From assembly GCA_011947345.1 (NCBI GenBank), contig JAAVTG010000531.1, positions 372,001-436,000 of the forward strand: a DNA stretch of 64,000 nt. Direction: 5' to 3'. The notes under the pieces are model-generated. The model saw only the letters and a list, made by a program, of their open reading frames with translations, was not told where the DNA came from and did no database searches. A program made the translations under genes and the position numbers. Positions 1,590-9,924 of this stretch are shown here, piece by piece (the first letter of the stretch is position 1; the number at the start of each line of letters is the position of its first letter). This DNA comes from Phytophthora quininea (taxonomy: Eukaryota; Oomycota; Peronosporomycetes; Peronosporales; Peronosporaceae).

Positions 1590-2092
1590 GGCCGAGTCGA
1601 TTCCCTTCCTGGCTGCCGAGAAATAATGTGAATGGCGTGTGAGGCCGTTAGATCTTGCGCCAATCACAATCGACGTTCAGAAAGTGTAGCCATGCAGTGA
1701 CGTCAGCGGCAACCTCGACTATCAACACAGCAACTTCAGCCGGAGCGGCAGGCGCAGGGCCCCACACTACCCGTCTCGACGAGCTTAGCACGTGTCGTCG
1801 CCTTCCAGCCATCCGTGTAGGATTGAGATCGCACCCGCTCTGCCGTATGGACTCTGTAAGATCGTGTCGTAGATCATGGACGCAGATTGCTCTTCCTTTG
1901 GGTTGTGCGTTGCTGCTCAGAGGTCGACTACAAGATCTTCCATCACCTACTCGTTGCAGTCCAAGGCTGCGCAGAGTAGTCCAACAGGACAAGACTTGTA
2001 ACTTGGTTCGTATCATGATCAGGCCAGATGGCTACATCATCGAATCAGGTGCATCCATCTGATTCTAATCCGCCACCTCGTCCAATTGCGTC
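1590..2092. other. Divergent promoter region between DCP1 and the 824-residue membrane protein
   Basis: About 500 bp separate two divergently transcribed genes. Open frames exist on both strands (for example 1655-2062 plus and 1648-2016 minus), but they overlap each other and show no recognisable protein feature. I see no repeat or clear core promoter element and treat the stretch as 5' UTR and promoter DNA for both neighbours. Confidence 0.4.
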
Positions 2093-4567
2093 ATGGCCGG
2101 CGCCTTCGCGCATGTCTGGCGCGGCGGCGTGGGGCTCGTGGGCTGGATAGGTGGTCTACTGCACCTCTCGCAGTCGCCCAGCAGTCTGCCCAGCGCACTG
2201 CCCAGCGCAAGCGATCAGCATAGCAGCACGTGGAAGGCGTGGAAGACATTTCTCAGCTCGACGCCCCGACGGGCGCGACGCCAGTCCCACGCGGCGCTGG
2301 AGCTGCTGGAAAAGTTCCGCCAAGGACCAGAGACCCACAGCGAGTGGAACTTGTTCCTGTGGAGAGCCACCTTCCCGTTGGTGTCGCTGGTTCTGCTCAC
2401 GGTGCTCTGTGTGGTCGGCCAGTTCGGCCACGCCGTCTACTCGCTGGTGGTGAACCCTGTCTGGTACTTCTGCAATCTGTCGCTGGTGGTGACGCCCTTC
2501 CTGTTGGTATTCCGGTTCAAAGCGCTCGACGACGGAGACGCACAGTCCAAATTGTGGCACGCACTGGCGGCAGTCAGTGGCGGCATCAGCCTCATCGAGT
2601 GGTACATGAGCGTCCCGACCAGCAGATACTCGTGGATCGTCGGCAATACATTGTTCGGCATTGTTGCGCTGGCAGCCGTGCCGCTATTCTTGAGTATGCA
2701 GCCCAGGACGGCGAGGTCTCAATACGAAGCCTTAGTGATGGAGCAGGAGCAAGGATCCAGGATGCATGGAGTGATTGAAGAAGAGAGTGAGAATTATGCA
2801 GCTAAAGACGGCTCTGTAGTGCTACACCATATGGATGTGTACTCTCCATCTTCGGGTCCTACAGTGGTGGAAGATGGATCGAGACGGCCTACGGCACTGT
2901 CGCTAGGCCCAAGACAGAGATCGGTCCCGCGCAGTCTTAATGAGGAACCGCGGTCGCCGAGAATTGACCTGGTGGAGACCGATACGCAACGACAGCAGGG
3001 ACAACGTGCGACTCGGCTATTATACGGCTGTGGATTTTGTGCGCTGGTGCTGTGGCTCATCATGTTCTCGTCGTACAGCTCCGCACGCGGAAACGAAGCG
3101 TCCACACGCTCGTGGTTTCTGCTGTACATGATGTCGCCTCTCCTGTGTGTCATACTCTTCTGTGCTCGCATCGTGCGAGCCCGCTTTAGCTTCCAACACG
3201 CAGTGGCGTACAGCACCCTTGTCGTGCACATCCCGCTGTTTCTCGGCCACTTGTGCGTGAGATTATTCGCGCTGGTTGAAGATCCTTCGTCGTCGTCACC
3301 GAGTAGTGGCGAGACAGGGCTCAAGTTGGCGATTTCGGTGCTGTATCTCCTGCTCATGCAAGGCTATTTCTTTGTGATCACACACATGGTGAACAGCATG
3401 TCGGAGCCGTTTGCGCACCCGACGTTGCTTTATGTGGGACAGCTGTACTACTACGTCTTCTGGTATATCTTGGTCGGCTCGGATACACCAATTGACTCGC
3501 TCTACTGGGGGATGTTGCTGCTCAACAATGTCCATATAGCGTTTCTTAACACTGGTGTCTACACAGATTTCAAGCGTTCGTCTTCGGCTTGGCTGGCCAT
3601 GCCGCTTCAGGTGAACATCACGTCGTCTGTCGTGCTTTGTCTGCGGTCTACAACGTCCGCTATGGATGTGTCGAGATGCTTCCCACAGAGTGGATCCCTC
3701 AGAACGAAAGGAATGTTGGGTCTCAATTGCGGTGTTGCTGGAGCGGCAGCAACTCTTGAAGTAGACGCCAGTCTCGTCGATGATGACCATGAATGCGAAT
3801 ACGACTACAGCTCAGACGGCTATAGCCTTGACGACGGCGATAGTGTCCGCGGCCTACGATCTTGGCAAGGAATTGGCAGTCAAATTCGAGAACGGGATCG
3901 TAGCGGCGGAGCAGCGCGGAGAGAAGCCCAAGCATCAGCGGTAGACATATCTTCACCCGTCCGAAAGACTGGATCGCGCAAGGCGTTAACTTTACGCGAA
4001 AAATGCTCTCGTGTGCAGGCGACTTGCACCAAATGTGGTGCTCACTCGAGTGGGTCTTCTCGGGCTGACAATGGCAACGTTACTCCCTTAACGTTAGCTA
4101 CCTCAATGAATGCTACAAGCGAGACGCTGCGGCCACTCTACTTCCTGATGAAACTTGCCGAGCAAGACAACATGGCCGATACCACTGCGCTCATTCTTGT
4201 CCCGTCATTACTGACGCTGTTGGCTGTGTTTGAAAAGCCTGGTAGTGCACTCACAGTGCTGCAAGACCAGACCAATTTGTGGTTGCGTTGCATTTGCATG
4301 TTCATCGGACGACTGGGCGGGTCGTACCTCGCTCGCGAGATCTTTGCCTGCAAGCTGCGCTCGAGGTTACGCTCATCGCCGGATGATTTACAACCGGATG
4401 CCATGAGCGGCAGCATTGACGGTCTGCCAGCGCGGCTTTGGATCCAGCGACTCATGCTGCAAGACTTCCACGCCCAGTTCTGGTACCTAACAACCGTGAC
4501 GATGGTGGTCACCTTCGGGTGCTTCGCTCGTGTTGATTTGCCGCTGCGGTTTGCTTTACTGTCGTAA
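2093..4567 (+). CDS. Multi-pass membrane protein of unknown function (824 aa)
   Basis: A single uninterrupted exon encodes 824 residues. I do not recognise the family. Hydrophobic segments that could cross the membrane lie near residues 94-117, 122-141, 154-172 and 181-201. After an acidic/Ser-rich hydrophilic loop (~205-305) comes a second group of about six segments (~310-500). A long polar loop (~505-680) with an Asp-rich patch and a CxxC-type motif (TCTKCGAH) precedes two or three final segments. This makes roughly ten to thirteen helices with two large cytoplasmic-type loops. There is no obvious cleavable signal peptide. It ends 79 bp from the convergent flippase gene. It may be oomycete-restricted, but that is a guess. 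It is one of the few long frames here without a break. Confidence 0.75.
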   Translation: MAGAFAHVWRGGVGLVGWIGGLLHLSQSPSSLPSALPSASDQHSSTWKAWKTFLSSTPRRARRQSHAALELLEKFRQGPETHSEWNLFLWRATFPLVSLVLLTVLCVVGQFGHAVYSLVVNPVWYFCNLSLVVTPFLLVFRFKALDDGDAQSKLWHALAAVSGGISLIEWYMSVPTSRYSWIVGNTLFGIVALAAVPLFLSMQPRTARSQYEALVMEQEQGSRMHGVIEEESENYAAKDGSVVLHHMDVYSPSSGPTVVEDGSRRPTALSLGPRQRSVPRSLNEEPRSPRIDLVETDTQRQQGQRATRLLYGCGFCALVLWLIMFSSYSSARGNEASTRSWFLLYMMSPLLCVILFCARIVRARFSFQHAVAYSTLVVHIPLFLGHLCVRLFALVEDPSSSSPSSGETGLKLAISVLYLLLMQGYFFVITHMVNSMSEPFAHPTLLYVGQLYYYVFWYILVGSDTPIDSLYWGMLLLNNVHIAFLNTGVYTDFKRSSSAWLAMPLQVNITSSVVLCLRSTTSAMDVSRCFPQSGSLRTKGMLGLNCGVAGAAATLEVDASLVDDDHECEYDYSSDGYSLDDGDSVRGLRSWQGIGSQIRERDRSGGAARREAQASAVDISSPVRKTGSRKALTLREKCSRVQATCTKCGAHSSGSSRADNGNVTPLTLATSMNATSETLRPLYFLMKLAEQDNMADTTALILVPSLLTLLAVFEKPGSALTVLQDQTNLWLRCICMFIGRLGGSYLAREIFACKLRSRLRSSPDDLQPDAMSGSIDGLPARLWIQRLMLQDFHAQFWYLTTVTMVVTFGCFARVDLPLRFALLS

Positions 4568-4646
4568 GCGAACAATCAACAAGAAGTGCGTTCACGTTAG
4601 AGCAGTCGTATTGTTTTATTGTAGGCCTAAAAGGAAGAAATGAAAG

Positions 4647-7600
4647 CTATTGAGATGGAGACCGAGGCGGGTCCCGTTCGGGCATGGGCCCCGCCAAGGC
4701 AATATTGGCTCGTTCTATAGCCTCCGCCATGAGCTTTTCCTTCCGCACCCACCGACGGCGACGCACGCTGCGACCAACGAGCTTGTTGAATTTCATCTTG
4801 ATACGACGGCGCTCCTGTATATCTGGATCAAGTCCGCTTGCGTAAGTCCGTAGTTCCGGGTGGCCTACATGTAACTCTTCGTGCACTTCTGCTATCTCGT
4901 GTTCGACATCCTGCTGCAATTTCTGCTGGGCACGTAAAAAGTCTTTGAATCTGGTAGCGTATTGCCACTGATCGGAGCCACCGAAGCCTGGATCGACTAC
5001 CCACCGGTCAAGGTCGAAGGTCGATGCACCATCAGTCATAATAGCGTTCGTGAACTTTGGCGGATCAGTGATAAGGAGATGGCCAGGTCGTAGCGACCCC
5101 AGCCAGTGAACACTTGGAACCGCTGGATCTCATACACAGCCTGCTGCTCGATCGGTAGAGCTAAGATTTTCTCCTCAAACGTCTTGTGCTCATCGGCACG
5201 CTCGCGTCGCGGAGCTCCCTCAGGGTTATTGCGGCCGATAGGGCTACCTGACGGTGATAGCACCCTACCAATAGCAGTAGCAACCTGACTGACGGGGAGA
5301 ACCAACTCTCGCAAAGGATTAATGAACCGGTCTTCCAGTACTTGAGTCGAAAACGCAAAACCCGTATAGGTTTTGTGCTCAGTTAGGGATTGTCGTTGGT
5401 TTGGCAGCGCCTGCTGCTCTGGCAAGTCGAATTGCGGCTTGCCTTCACTCAGATCCGCCTGGAAACGTTCGTATCGCAGCTCTGGTGGCGACCAGCGAGC
5501 TTTGTCAGGGATCGCAACATTGCATTTCTTGCGGAACTCCTGCAGAATATGGTAGTATTCCGGATGCATCTCGCGCTTGTAAGCTTTGTGAAGGAAGTCA
5601 CGTCCCAAGCAAAGCAGTAGAGCTAGGAACAGTGCGATGTAAAACTCGGGAAGCACGAAAATGTGCGGGAATGCGGTATCAGCAACAGACGAAGGAGCGC
5701 CGCAGCGATGGTGTAAGCTGAAATGTACCAGAAAACGACCGAGAAAGCGAAAGCAAAGGCTGTGATGACGTTCCACGTGACCATGTTCAGCGCGAGTTTG
5801 ACCCAGCCGACGCTGATCAAGCAACAGTACGAGATAGCGCCGCACAGATCGCGTGAAAAGCCGTTCCCCGTCGAGTCGACAGGTCCACCGATGATAATCG
5901 CAGGCACTACAGCACAAACAACACTCTCAAAAAGCCCCTCACTAACCCATTGCGCGAATATGCGAAAGCTAAACAGTTCTCCTTGAGCTCCGATGTGATA
6001 GAGGCCGGGAAACTGCTCTGCAATACGTGCTGGCACTTCTTGCTCTGTGATCGCCATGATACCAATAGGCAGGGAAGACCAGAACACATTGTAGCCGTTA
6101 ATCCACATATTGTTGTAGAAAAGTGTACCGGAGGACCCACACTGAGGAGCACAGCTAGCACGAACGCCGTGCCAAAGAGCAAGATGTTCTTGTAAACCAC
6201 ATACAGAGCCAACTTCGACATTCGTCGATAATTCCAATGCCCGTGAACAAGAAGTAGTCGCTTTAGGAACCGAAACTGGGCGATAGCAAAGTCACTGGCG
6301 TTCACAGCTTGCATCCCCTCGTGACCAGATATCCCCACACCGATGTGAGCTTCTTGAATCATAGCAACATCATTGGCACCGTCACCGATAGCAAGCGAAC
6401 GACAGCCATGTAAGTTTGTTTTGAAAAGTCGGACCACTTGAGCTTTTGTTTCGGAGAAACACGGCAGCAGATTACAGACACATTGTTGTGACACCTCCAG
6501 GAACAACTCGGAGAGCACCAAATTACTAAAGACCATCGTTAGAATCCGCCCGTCAATCACAATGGCTTGTGACTGTCGCTCCTTGGCCATTCCATTTGCT
6601 TCCTGTTCGTTGCGCTTTCGGGTCTCTAAACAACGCGTCAAGAGCATATCGTAGAGATCCGATGCAGAAGGGGTCGTGTCGGAGTTGATCGTGATTCGTT
6701 CCATATCGTTGTTGAGAAGTTGGCAAGCAAAGCCAATATTCACAGCGGTTTCCTCCTTATCTCCAGTCAGCACCCAAATCTTGATACCAGCCCGAGAGAG
6801 ATCTCCAAGCGTAGATGTCACTTGATCCTGCAATCGATCTTCGATAGCTGTAGCACCCAACAAATCCAAATTCTGTTCAAGTTGTTCCTCTAGTTCCTCA
6901 ATTTGATTCGGTTCGCCGCGCCGTTGCAGAGCCATCTGCTCCAAGTCGCCAAGTGCGCTGTTGTACTCCTCTGACCATTCGGCATATGCTTCCTCTGGCA
7001 ACTCCTTCTGGGCAATCACAAGCGTGCGCAATCCTTCGGTGGCGTAGCGTTCCAGGTGTGTTAAAGTGATATCGACAATAGTCTCGTTCAACGGCGATTT
7101 CGCAAGACGCGGAAAGATAACCGAGTCGGCACCTTTCGTTAGCAGCAGAACGCGTTTGTCCGGTGTTCGAACAACCACCGACATGCGCTTCCTCGTGCTA
7201 GTGAAATCAATCATTTCCAGCAGCTCATATACCTCCTCGTCACGACGACCTGGGATCGAAATCGCCACGGAGCCGTTTCGCCGTGCAAGGAACGAGTAGC
7301 CAAAGTAGTTTGCACCAGACACAAGTGCGAGTTCGTCGGGCGAGGAGGCTGAAAACCCTGTGCCTGTGTCATCCTCAGACAAAGTCTCGCGGACGACGGA
7401 GTGGCAGACCGCCAAGTGTACGAAGAAATCGTGAATCCGCGCAGCTTGTTCCGAACGCAGCCGCGAATCGCTGTCACGCTCGAGGTCTCCGGCCGGGTCA
7501 AGGAAGTTAACATTGTCGGTCTTGGTGACCACGGGCGTGTTGTCCGCAAGAATATCACTAGCTGAGAGATCTTTACCAAGTCGACGAGTGGCCTCACGCC

Positions 7601-9130
7601 CAATTTCCGTAGTGCCACGCCCATAAGACACTCCATGGATGCTCATCTTGCGGAAGTCCATTTCGTTGGCCGTGAGGGTACCAGTTTTATCGCTGAATAT
7701 ATGGGTCACCTGTCCAAGGTCGTCGTTTAGGTCCGAATTGCGAACAAGCGCTGGGGTGTCTGTGACTTCGTCATACATGCCTAGATCGCGATTCAAGAAG
7801 AAGGTTTGATACGTTTTGACGATGGCAATCGTCACGTACAGAGTAATCGGCACGAACGACGCGATAAGGATCCAGAAGTAGCCCAGGTAGATCAAGAAGC
7901 CAACAACATCGTCACGGAACGGCGCTACCCCTCCCAAGTCCTCGAGGTGCAAATACGTCGCACCGTCGCGGTGCTCCGACACCCAGAACGCACACATCAC
8001 CGCGCCAAAAATGCACAAACAGCCCAAAATGGCCATGAGCAGTCCGTTTCCGCGGTTGACGATTGCCAATATCTTGCTCACTTTGCTGGGAGGTGAGTGC
8101 GATCCAGCCTGCATGATTTTGGTATCACCGCCCGTATTCAGGACGAGGCCATAGACAAACGGTGTGTTCCGGATCACGCAGCCACGTAGAGCGACGTTCT
8201 TCAGGTCAATTGGAATCGCGTGACCGCTTTGTGGCTCGAAGCGACCCGAGAAAGCATTCACGTCGTGATTGGGTTTTTCACAAACCACACGACCAGGGAG
8301 CTGCGCTAGCGCTCGTGGATCGCTAAGCTGAGAAAAGGTGCAGCTCAGTGCCTGCCGTACCTTGAGATTTGTTTCTCCATCCAGCGACTTTGTCTCTACA
8401 AAGCAAATGCCAGCGGGAGCGTTTGGATCCGGTTCTGAAACAGCCAACAGCAGTACGTCTGCCGGGATCGATTCGTAGTTGAAGACCTTGATAATATCTC
8501 CGACTGCAACGTTTCGCCATGTATCGTCGCGAAAACACGCTTCTTCGTCGTCCTTATCCAGGTCGAAGATGTGCGAAGCGCGAGCATTCATTTTCGCGTC
8601 CGCAACGTGGCGTCCATGGTCCTCGATAGCAGCGAATATCGCGTCGATCGATAGAACGAGTGTTAACACGATCCACTGGTACGGAATGGTCTGCGTGGAC
8701 GAGATTTCGGGGATGATCTGGCCCGCACCCACGAGCAGGAAGTAGAAGTTGGCCACCTGCGAAAGCCGCTCGTAGAAAAATCGTGGGATAAAGTTGAGTT
8801 TCGTGTACTTGGCGGTGGTGACCTTGTTGTTGCAGAACTTCTGCGCTGCATTTTGTTAGAGTTGTTCACGAAGATGCAGCGCGCGTTGGCTTCCGAGAGC
8901 ATGGACCCGGTGCTCTCGCCCGCAGTGCCATCGCTAACAGCCGACAGGATCGACATTGTCGACGTTCCAAGCCCCGCAGCAGCCTCGGCCAGCATTTTCG
9001 GGGCCCAACCGGGCGACGACGATTGCGGGGACTGCCCCACCTGTACGGTCCGGTGCGAGGCCTCTTCATCCACCGACACGTCACTAACGCGCGCGTTACC
9101 GCCATTGAGAACTGCTTCCAGCACAGTCAT
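4647..9130 (-). CDS. P4-type phospholipid-flippase ATPase with C-terminal DysF domain (frame-broken in this assembly)
   Basis: P4 ATPases move phospholipids from the outer to the cytoplasmic leaflet of Golgi, endosome and plasma membranes. Order of features: a polar N-terminus; the conserved entry block LNFIPRFFYERLSQVANFYF; the actuator-loop motif SLDGETNLKVRQAL; the phosphorylation motif DKTGTLTANEMDF (about 7669-7692); KGADSVIF; TGDKEETAVNIGFA; GDGANDVAMIQEAHIGVGIS; and the late membrane helices. The tail contains HKTYTGFAFS, typical of P4 C-termini, then runs on into VYEIQRFQVFTGWGRYDL, LITDPPKFTNA, WVVDPGFGGSDQWQYATRF and RRRRWVRK, which is the DysFN-DysFC pattern. About 1495 residues. 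The frame changes near 8850, 6150, 5690 and 5083; each is repaired by one added base. The start is the ATG at 9130, the first after an in-frame stop. Convergent with the membrane-protein gene. Confidence 0.85.
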
Positions 9131-9399: not shown

Positions 9400-9907
9400 T
9401 CAGAGTTTGGTCTGGATCTTGGCCTGCATGGCCTGACCAGCCTCCTTGGTGATCATCTCCTTGCCAGCAGGCAAGTCGATGAGCTTGTCGTCCTTGAAGC
9501 GAGGGATCACGTGGATGTGGGCGTGGAAGACGGCCTGGCCAGCAGCAGCGCCGTTGTTCTGGACGATGTTGATGCCGTCGCTGCCCGTGGCCTCCTGCAC
9601 CGCTTTGGCCAGTCGCGGAAGCTCCTTGAACACGTTGGCCGCGACCTCGGGCGGCATGTCTGTCAATGAAATAAGTAAATCATGTCATATTCGAGCTAAG
9701 ATTTTTATATTCCAGGCTATTTTTACCCATGACGGTGGCGTATCCAGGCGCCTTGGGCAGCAGCAGAGCGTGGCCGGGCACCGTAGGGAAGGCGTCTAGG
9801 ATGGCGACCACATGCTCCGTCTCGAACAGCTTGAAGGACGGGATGTCGCCCTTGATGATCTTAAGGAAGATGTTCTCCGGGTCGTACGCGATCGCCATGG
9901 CTTTCAA
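9400..9907 (-). CDS. HIT-family (histidine triad) nucleotide hydrolase
   Basis: Members of this family hydrolyse nucleoside phosphoramidates or dinucleoside polyphosphates. Two exons (9907-9727 and 9659-9400) are joined across a 67 bp intron (gtaaaa...gacag), giving about 146 residues, a normal length for a HINT-type protein. The N-terminal half has YDPENIFLKIIKGDIPSFKL and HALLLPK. The C-terminal half carries the catalytic triad motif HAHIHVIP, followed by a basic tail. A second in-frame ATG at 9898 (MAIAYDPEN) may be the true start. The gene shares a 214 bp divergent promoter with the esterase gene; that promoter contains a direct repeat (9925-9974). Family assignment is firm. The exact substrate cannot be read from the sequence. 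Confidence 0.9.
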
Positions 9908-9924
9908 AGTAGGAATACCAAATC

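Follow-up and report, generated by a model that had tools for sequence, protein, structure and literature searches.

P4-ATPases of the Drs2 type, such as yeast Drs2 and human ATP8B1, share PhoLip_ATPase_N and PhoLip_ATPase_C regions, the DGET and DKTGT motifs and a C-terminal GFAFS-type motif. In Drs2, the C-terminal GFAFSQ sequence binds the N-domain and inhibits the pump, an inhibition that is countered by phosphatidylinositol 4-phosphate, which gives partial relief, and by partner proteins, according to the available text of PMC12424579. Dysferlin (DysF) domains, which otherwise occur in proteins of membrane repair, autophagy, and organelle contacts, and flippases are each well known, and we found no report of their union in the open-licence literature of PubMed Central (PMC). 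We analyzed a 64-kb stretch of the Phytophthora quininea genome (GCA_011947345.1, contig JAAVTG010000531.1, positions 372,001 to 436,000), called the window below. A gene on its minus strand almost certainly encodes a Drs2-type P4-ATPase that is widespread in oomycetes and has a genuine C-terminal DysF domain. The fusion truly exists, is conserved, and, to the extent that this literature was searched, is undescribed. We also regard as likely the fuller explanation, that is, a Drs2-type flippase that gained a genuine DysF domain in a single fusion, with frame changes in the window copy that come from assembly or sequencing errors and with a tail that may sense lipids.

Past its GFAFS-type motif, the protein continues into the DysF domain, whereas none is described for Drs2-type pumps in the available text of the review cited above (PMC12424579). 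The domain resembles the N-terminal DysF of TECPR1 (8P5P) in the order of its motifs (ENQR/EIQR, D, W.YA..F, VRRRxW). However, TECPR1 has a beta-propeller architecture and recruits an LC3-conjugating ligase, and its tip residue W154 is absent from the flippase tails. As in the Pex23/Pex30 peroxins (Pfam Pex24p), among which the Pex30 DysF binds phosphatidic acid, the domain forms part of a membrane protein's cytosolic tail, but the peroxins have a reticulon-like membrane domain and no pump, and the flippase tails fall under the Pex24p cut-off. Ferlins (dysferlin and myoferlin) also have a DysF domain; theirs is nested and accompanied by several C2 domains, whereas the flippase tails have one DysF, and no C2 domain was found at expect (E) values up to 10 in any of five relatives (P0105, P0088, P0102, P0016, and P0009). 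Apicomplexan guanylyl cyclase alpha includes a P4-ATPase part and is likewise, in the available descriptions, a P4-ATPase-type module joined to another functional domain, but its partner is a cyclase and not a lipid-binding domain.

The first-pass annotation, made from the DNA letters, knew of no described P4-ATPase with a DysF domain, and none turned up in the literature searched. In open-licence PMC papers (with subscription papers and other database annotations outside this scope), none paired "DysF domain" with "flippase," and none paired "dysferlin domain" with "oomycete." The accessible part of PMC8172628 deals with peroxins, TECPR1, and DysF, includes Phytophthora infestans in its species set, and leaves flippases unmentioned. 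The P. capsici Drs2 homolog PcApt1 was analyzed with Pfam, and its deletion affects phosphatidylserine transport and growth, as stated in the accessible part of PMC9127794. PcApt1 is a candidate counterpart of the present gene.

In the window pieces, Pfam recognized the P4-ATPase part of the gene by PhoLip_ATPase_N (67.4 bits; cut-off, 29) and by PhoLip_ATPase_C, the latter split into two matches of 79.2 and 116.4 bits (cut-off, 28.3), as well as by cation-ATPase and hydrolase regions. P4-ATPases were at the top of a PDB search (best, 6k7g at 1.1e-184), with DRS2, DNF1, DNF2, and ATPase IC, which we take to be ATP8B1, among the matches. The DGET, DKTGT, PITL, and GDGAND motifs were all present in the window piece 5910-8855, and among the 63 DysF-bearing relatives described below, DGET was found in 60, DKTGT in 61, PI[ST]L in 62, and GDGxND in 62. 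A flippase function of the gene product, with a CDC50 partner and lipid flipping, is predicted from sequence. The gene occupies the minus strand between about 9130 and 4647, and the DysF domain makes up its final ~130 codons. According to a coding-frame scan, the coding signal consists of five segments with four frame changes, near 8845, 6127, 5679, and 5058. The last one lies inside the DysF part; the first three were absent from the first-pass annotation. The parts of the gene are the following.

8845..9130, minus strand: N-terminal cytosolic flippase part (frame scan, alignment to P0001 and P0002)
6127..8844, minus strand: P4-ATPase body, with PhoLip_ATPase_N, DGET, DKTGT, the nucleotide-binding region, GDGAND, and the start of PhoLip_ATPase_C
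5679..6126, minus strand: C-terminal transmembrane part with PhoLip_ATPase_C, read in a different frame (Pfam, 116.4 bits; frame scan)
5363..5678, minus strand: last transmembrane segment and linker as far as GFAFS (frames, alignment)
5348..5362, minus strand: GFAFS motif, a Drs2-type autoinhibitory motif (sequence; role in Drs2 per the available text of PMC12424579)
4740..5137, minus strand: DysF domain, with DysFN (VYEIQRF...DPPKFTN) and DysFC (W.VD...WQYATRF...VRRRRWVRK) (profiles; frame change near 5058)
4647..4739, minus strand: short C-terminal end and stop codon (frame list)
4615..4620, minus strand: candidate polyadenylation signal AATAAA, ~26 bases beyond the stop (by eye)

The start codon is presumably the furthest-upstream in-frame ATG of the N-terminal piece, at 9130. 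For the tail, it had been claimed that the flippase motif HKTYTGFAFS continues in the same frame, free of stops, to VYEIQRFQVFTGWG and that, after a break, LITDPPKFTN, DQWQYATRF, and RRRRWVRK follow. Both claims were confirmed. The stop-to-stop frame 5036-5926 on the minus strand connects the final transmembrane part, by way of HKTYTGFAFS, with that sequence, and a second minus-strand frame, 4647-5129, holds LLITDPPKFTN, DQWQYATRF, and VRRRRWVRK, followed by the stop codon at 4649-4647. These frames overlap, with a switch of the coding signal from one to the other near 5058. HKTYTGFAFS had been taken as a flippase tail motif; it is indeed located ahead of DysF, but it is more than a marker, as GFAFS is autoinhibitory in Drs2 (PMC12424579, available text), and this alters the mechanism to be expected. 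When aligned to the intact P. kernoviae relative P0002, the first tail piece covered residues 1063-1259 with 81% identity, and the second covered residues 1259-1406 with 83%. The two pieces thus join at residue 1259, and therefore no residues were lost between them.

The conservation of this architecture was examined in relatives. A search with the ATPase piece gave 7400 matches among 7982 scored candidates, of which the best 120 were listed, and the nearest named proteins among the matches listed came from Phytophthora nicotianae and P. kernoviae. The DysF tail was present in all of P0001-P0025, the best 25 of the 7400, each of them one continuous gene model; P0008, P0019, and P0025 are incomplete in the tail. 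The genera named in this set are Phytophthora, Nothophytophthora, Globisporangium, Pythium, Lagenidium, Albugo, Aphanomyces, Saprolegnia, Achlya, and Thraustotheca. A profile built from 12 first-group tails (A1) matched 39 of 121 proteins at an E value of <1e-6 and left 82 unmatched. These 39 are P0001-P0025, P0121 (found through its tail), and 13 members, of 1471-1712 residues, of a second P4-ATPase paralogue group (P0088-P0145 range) that is also DysF tailed. Searches with first-group and second-group tails returned 17 and 37 proteins, respectively; judged by Pfam, each of them is a P4-ATPase, and every species named is an oomycete. The first-pass annotation had pointed to relatives as the place to look for the same tail, and with a third profile (A3), the domain was found in 63 of 145 P4-ATPase relatives, of which the first group accounts for 26 and the second for 37, P0145 being the most divergent. 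Two conserved oomycete membrane proteins thus share the architecture. No DysF-tailed P4-ATPase from outside the oomycetes was found among the named matches, in searches of limited sensitivity that relied on shared five-residue words and therefore allow no conclusion on DysF-flippases beyond oomycetes. No downy mildew was named among the first-group matches and no Saprolegniales among the second-group matches, each being present in the other group; these gaps could reflect loss, 90% clustering, or limited sensitivity. In P. cactorum, P0008 is without the DysFN half, which P0005 and P0007 keep, because of either a prediction error or alternative splicing.

Recognition of the tail as a DysF domain required a profile of many tails. 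A profile made from 19 flippase tails only (A4) was compared with 177,635 PDB sequences at E values up to 10, and the sole match was the TECPR1 DysF (8P5P; E value, 4.7e-5). With A1, TECPR1 appeared only at an E value of 8.7, and Sortilin chains (E values, 1.2-1.5) and a PrsA chain were also listed. A3 reached TECPR1 at 3e-6, but this match carries no weight because A3 includes a Pfam-recognized DysF domain (L001); likewise, a comparison of A1 with A3 gives no evidence because the two share members. A PDB search with the DysFC piece of the window alone gave chance matches. A1 also matched, over profile positions 2-107 of 113 and at 31.5 bits, the DysF domain of another protein encoded in this genome, which has a VASt-VASt-DysF architecture. 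The best shuffle reached 9.8 bits (1850 reported of 2000 shuffles) versus 31.5 for the real sequence and 8.0 versus 36.4. The paired DysFN/DysFC arrangement claimed in the first pass was recovered: conserved columns showed N and C halves with conserved Trp and Arg residues, the N motif was present in 61 of the 63 tails, and [VILM]RRR[RE]W was present in 60, across both paralogues, with VRRR[RE]W not located in P0019, P0133, and P0139. Given intact orthologs, a second paralogue of the same architecture, and the profile match to TECPR1, the P4-ATPase with a C-terminal DysF that had been proposed is supported. By eye, the DysF of the second paralogue is more canonical (ENQRY ... LLPTDR ... GWVYE.DF ... 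VRRREW). In the same genome, the VASt-VASt-DysF gene (L001:1366-3324) is over the Pfam cut-off, and a C2-DysF gene (L002:1111-1938), at 25.7 bits, is slightly below it.

The origin of the fusion was examined with trees made from ATPase columns only, the tail being excluded. In a FastTree tree of 120 rows (P0121 left out), both DysF groups were on the same side of one branch, with a support of 99; this side includes two DysF-less rows, P0113 (841 residues) and P0119 (784 residues), nearly identical to P0025. An IQ-TREE mixture-model tree of 40 hand-chosen rows from those 120 again placed both groups on one side, with a support of 98. Therefore, a single ancient fusion is the likeliest origin, and it probably predates, as one event, both the divergence of the main oomycete orders and the duplication into two DysF-bearing paralogues. 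The G[FY]A[FY][SD] pattern was also found in 45 of 82 DysF-less P4-ATPase relatives; DysF therefore probably joined a tail that already held the switch.

The same pattern was found ahead of DysF in 58 of the 63 relatives, and the domain starts 38-94 residues (median, 46) past the GFAFS-type motif in the 57 that were measurable. According to the available text of PMC12101078, phosphatidic acid is bound on lipid strips by the DysF domains of Pex28, Pex29, Pex30, and Pex31 and by the inner DysF of human dysferlin, and in liposomes too by those of Pex30, Pex31, and dysferlin; in Pex30, simulation and mutation indicated that aromatic and basic residues in an inter-strand loop bind the lipid. In 61 of the 63 flippase tails, the N motif keeps an arginine followed by an aromatic residue. 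Over its final 45 residues, the domain contains 15-19 K+R versus 2-5 D+E in the seven first-group proteins counted. The basic end is less even in the second group. From these features we infer a lipid, a switch, and a cellular site. The DysF domain would be a cytosolic lipid sensor connected by a linker of ~46 residues to the pump-inhibiting GFAFS motif. On the cytosolic face, its aromatic/basic tip and polybasic loop would meet an anionic lipid, e.g., phosphatidic acid, and the lipid-bound domain would pull the tail off the nucleotide-binding domain so that flipping begins; alternatively, it could keep the pump where this lipid is abundant, in a membrane patch or at a contact site. Such lipid sensing, by switch or placement, is plausible, at slightly worse than even chances. 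More tentatively, these proteins may form a P4-ATPase clade, so far oomycete only, in which DysF detects a signal lipid, be it phosphatidic acid or a different one, on the cytosolic face and releases GFAFS autoinhibition with no separate Drs2-type activators. If so, the membrane state itself would turn flipping on. The fusion sets a domain with lipid ligands, as reported in 2023 and 2025, beside the motif that autoinhibits a lipid pump, and the idea that lipids control a flippase directly can be tested on it.

A pure localization tether, in which DysF confines the protein to a single membrane or contact site without effect on pump activity, would agree with the disruption of contact sites upon loss of the Pex30 DysF (PMC12101078, available text). 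We consider it rather unlikely, since the position of DysF shortly past the autoinhibitory motif, as measured in 57 of the 63 relatives, is a natural place for a switch, although this is suggestive only. It is improbable that the domain, like that of TECPR1, senses a sphingolipid that damaged membranes expose on their cytosolic side and recruits the flippase to restore asymmetry. The TECPR1 N-terminal DysF is the only PDB relative by sequence and binds exposed sphingomyelin, for which W154 is essential (PMC10476172, available text). However, the flippase tails have no counterpart of W154, with no Trp ≤12 residues before VRRR[RE]W in any of the 60 tails with this motif, and, according to the same text, recruitment was not seen for the remaining human DysF domains that were tried. 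Therefore, the absence of W154, together with the Pex30-like arginine/aromatic and basic features, makes a sensor or tether of the phosphatidic acid type seem likelier than a sphingomyelin sensor. The role at membrane repair or contact sites that the first-pass annotation suggested is a prediction.

Several observations weigh against a genuine DysF domain gained once. Pfam Pex24p (cut-off, 26.8 bits) matched neither the window pieces nor five full relatives, so that the profile check against PF06398 proposed in the first pass failed for window pieces and intact relatives alike. Below the cut-off, 2 of 12 tails matched weakly (best E value, 0.029), and 3 of 8 scored 9.0-12.4 bits. The failure in the window pieces is partly due to the mid-domain split, but the intact relatives are under the cut-off as well. 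The Pfam model thus misses this DysF branch, which is perhaps why the domain was left unnamed. Fold searches (Foldseek, two models) gave no clear DysF match, with a weak structural pointer of the tail to myoferlin residues 859-1083. Both DysF groups are on long branches, and the trees are unrooted. Finally, with a frame change within DysF, the window copy by itself is no proof of the fusion. Since intact relatives exist, this break belongs to the window copy or its assembly, and the frame changes are most likely assembly or sequencing errors. It is doubtful that the gene is a decaying pseudogene with a tail unexpressed in this genome. Four frame changes within ~4.5 kb would fit decay. However, the aligned pieces are free of stop codons, and their identity to P0002 is near-even: 84% for the N-terminal piece (32 residues only), 87% for the body (6127..8844), 83% for the 5679..6126 piece, and 81% and 83% for the tail pieces. 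To P0001, the N-terminal piece has a lower identity, 68% over 91 residues. Outside the flippase gene, at 9682-62961, the window has fifteen further abutting same-strand frame changes, either indel errors or short introns, and these point to assembly. That the tail is an unrelated basic tail resembling DysF by chance, as the missing Pfam call and the unclear fold searches would allow, is very improbable in view of the sole PDB profile match, the far lower shuffles, and the N and VRRR[RE]W motifs in two paralogues.

A promoter/terminator scan of 4500-5400 found 0 promoter-like sites (0.8 in shuffles), with a bacterial consensus that is uninformative for this host, and no tRNA was found in the 64-kb window. 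Convergent with the flippase gene, an 832-codon plus-strand frame with many hydrophobic stretches is located at 2069-4567, and the two stop codons are 79 bases apart. Directly upstream of the flippase gene and on the same strand, a HIT-family-like gene is located at 9400-9922; its HAHIHVIPR sequence is presumably the HIT-family motif.
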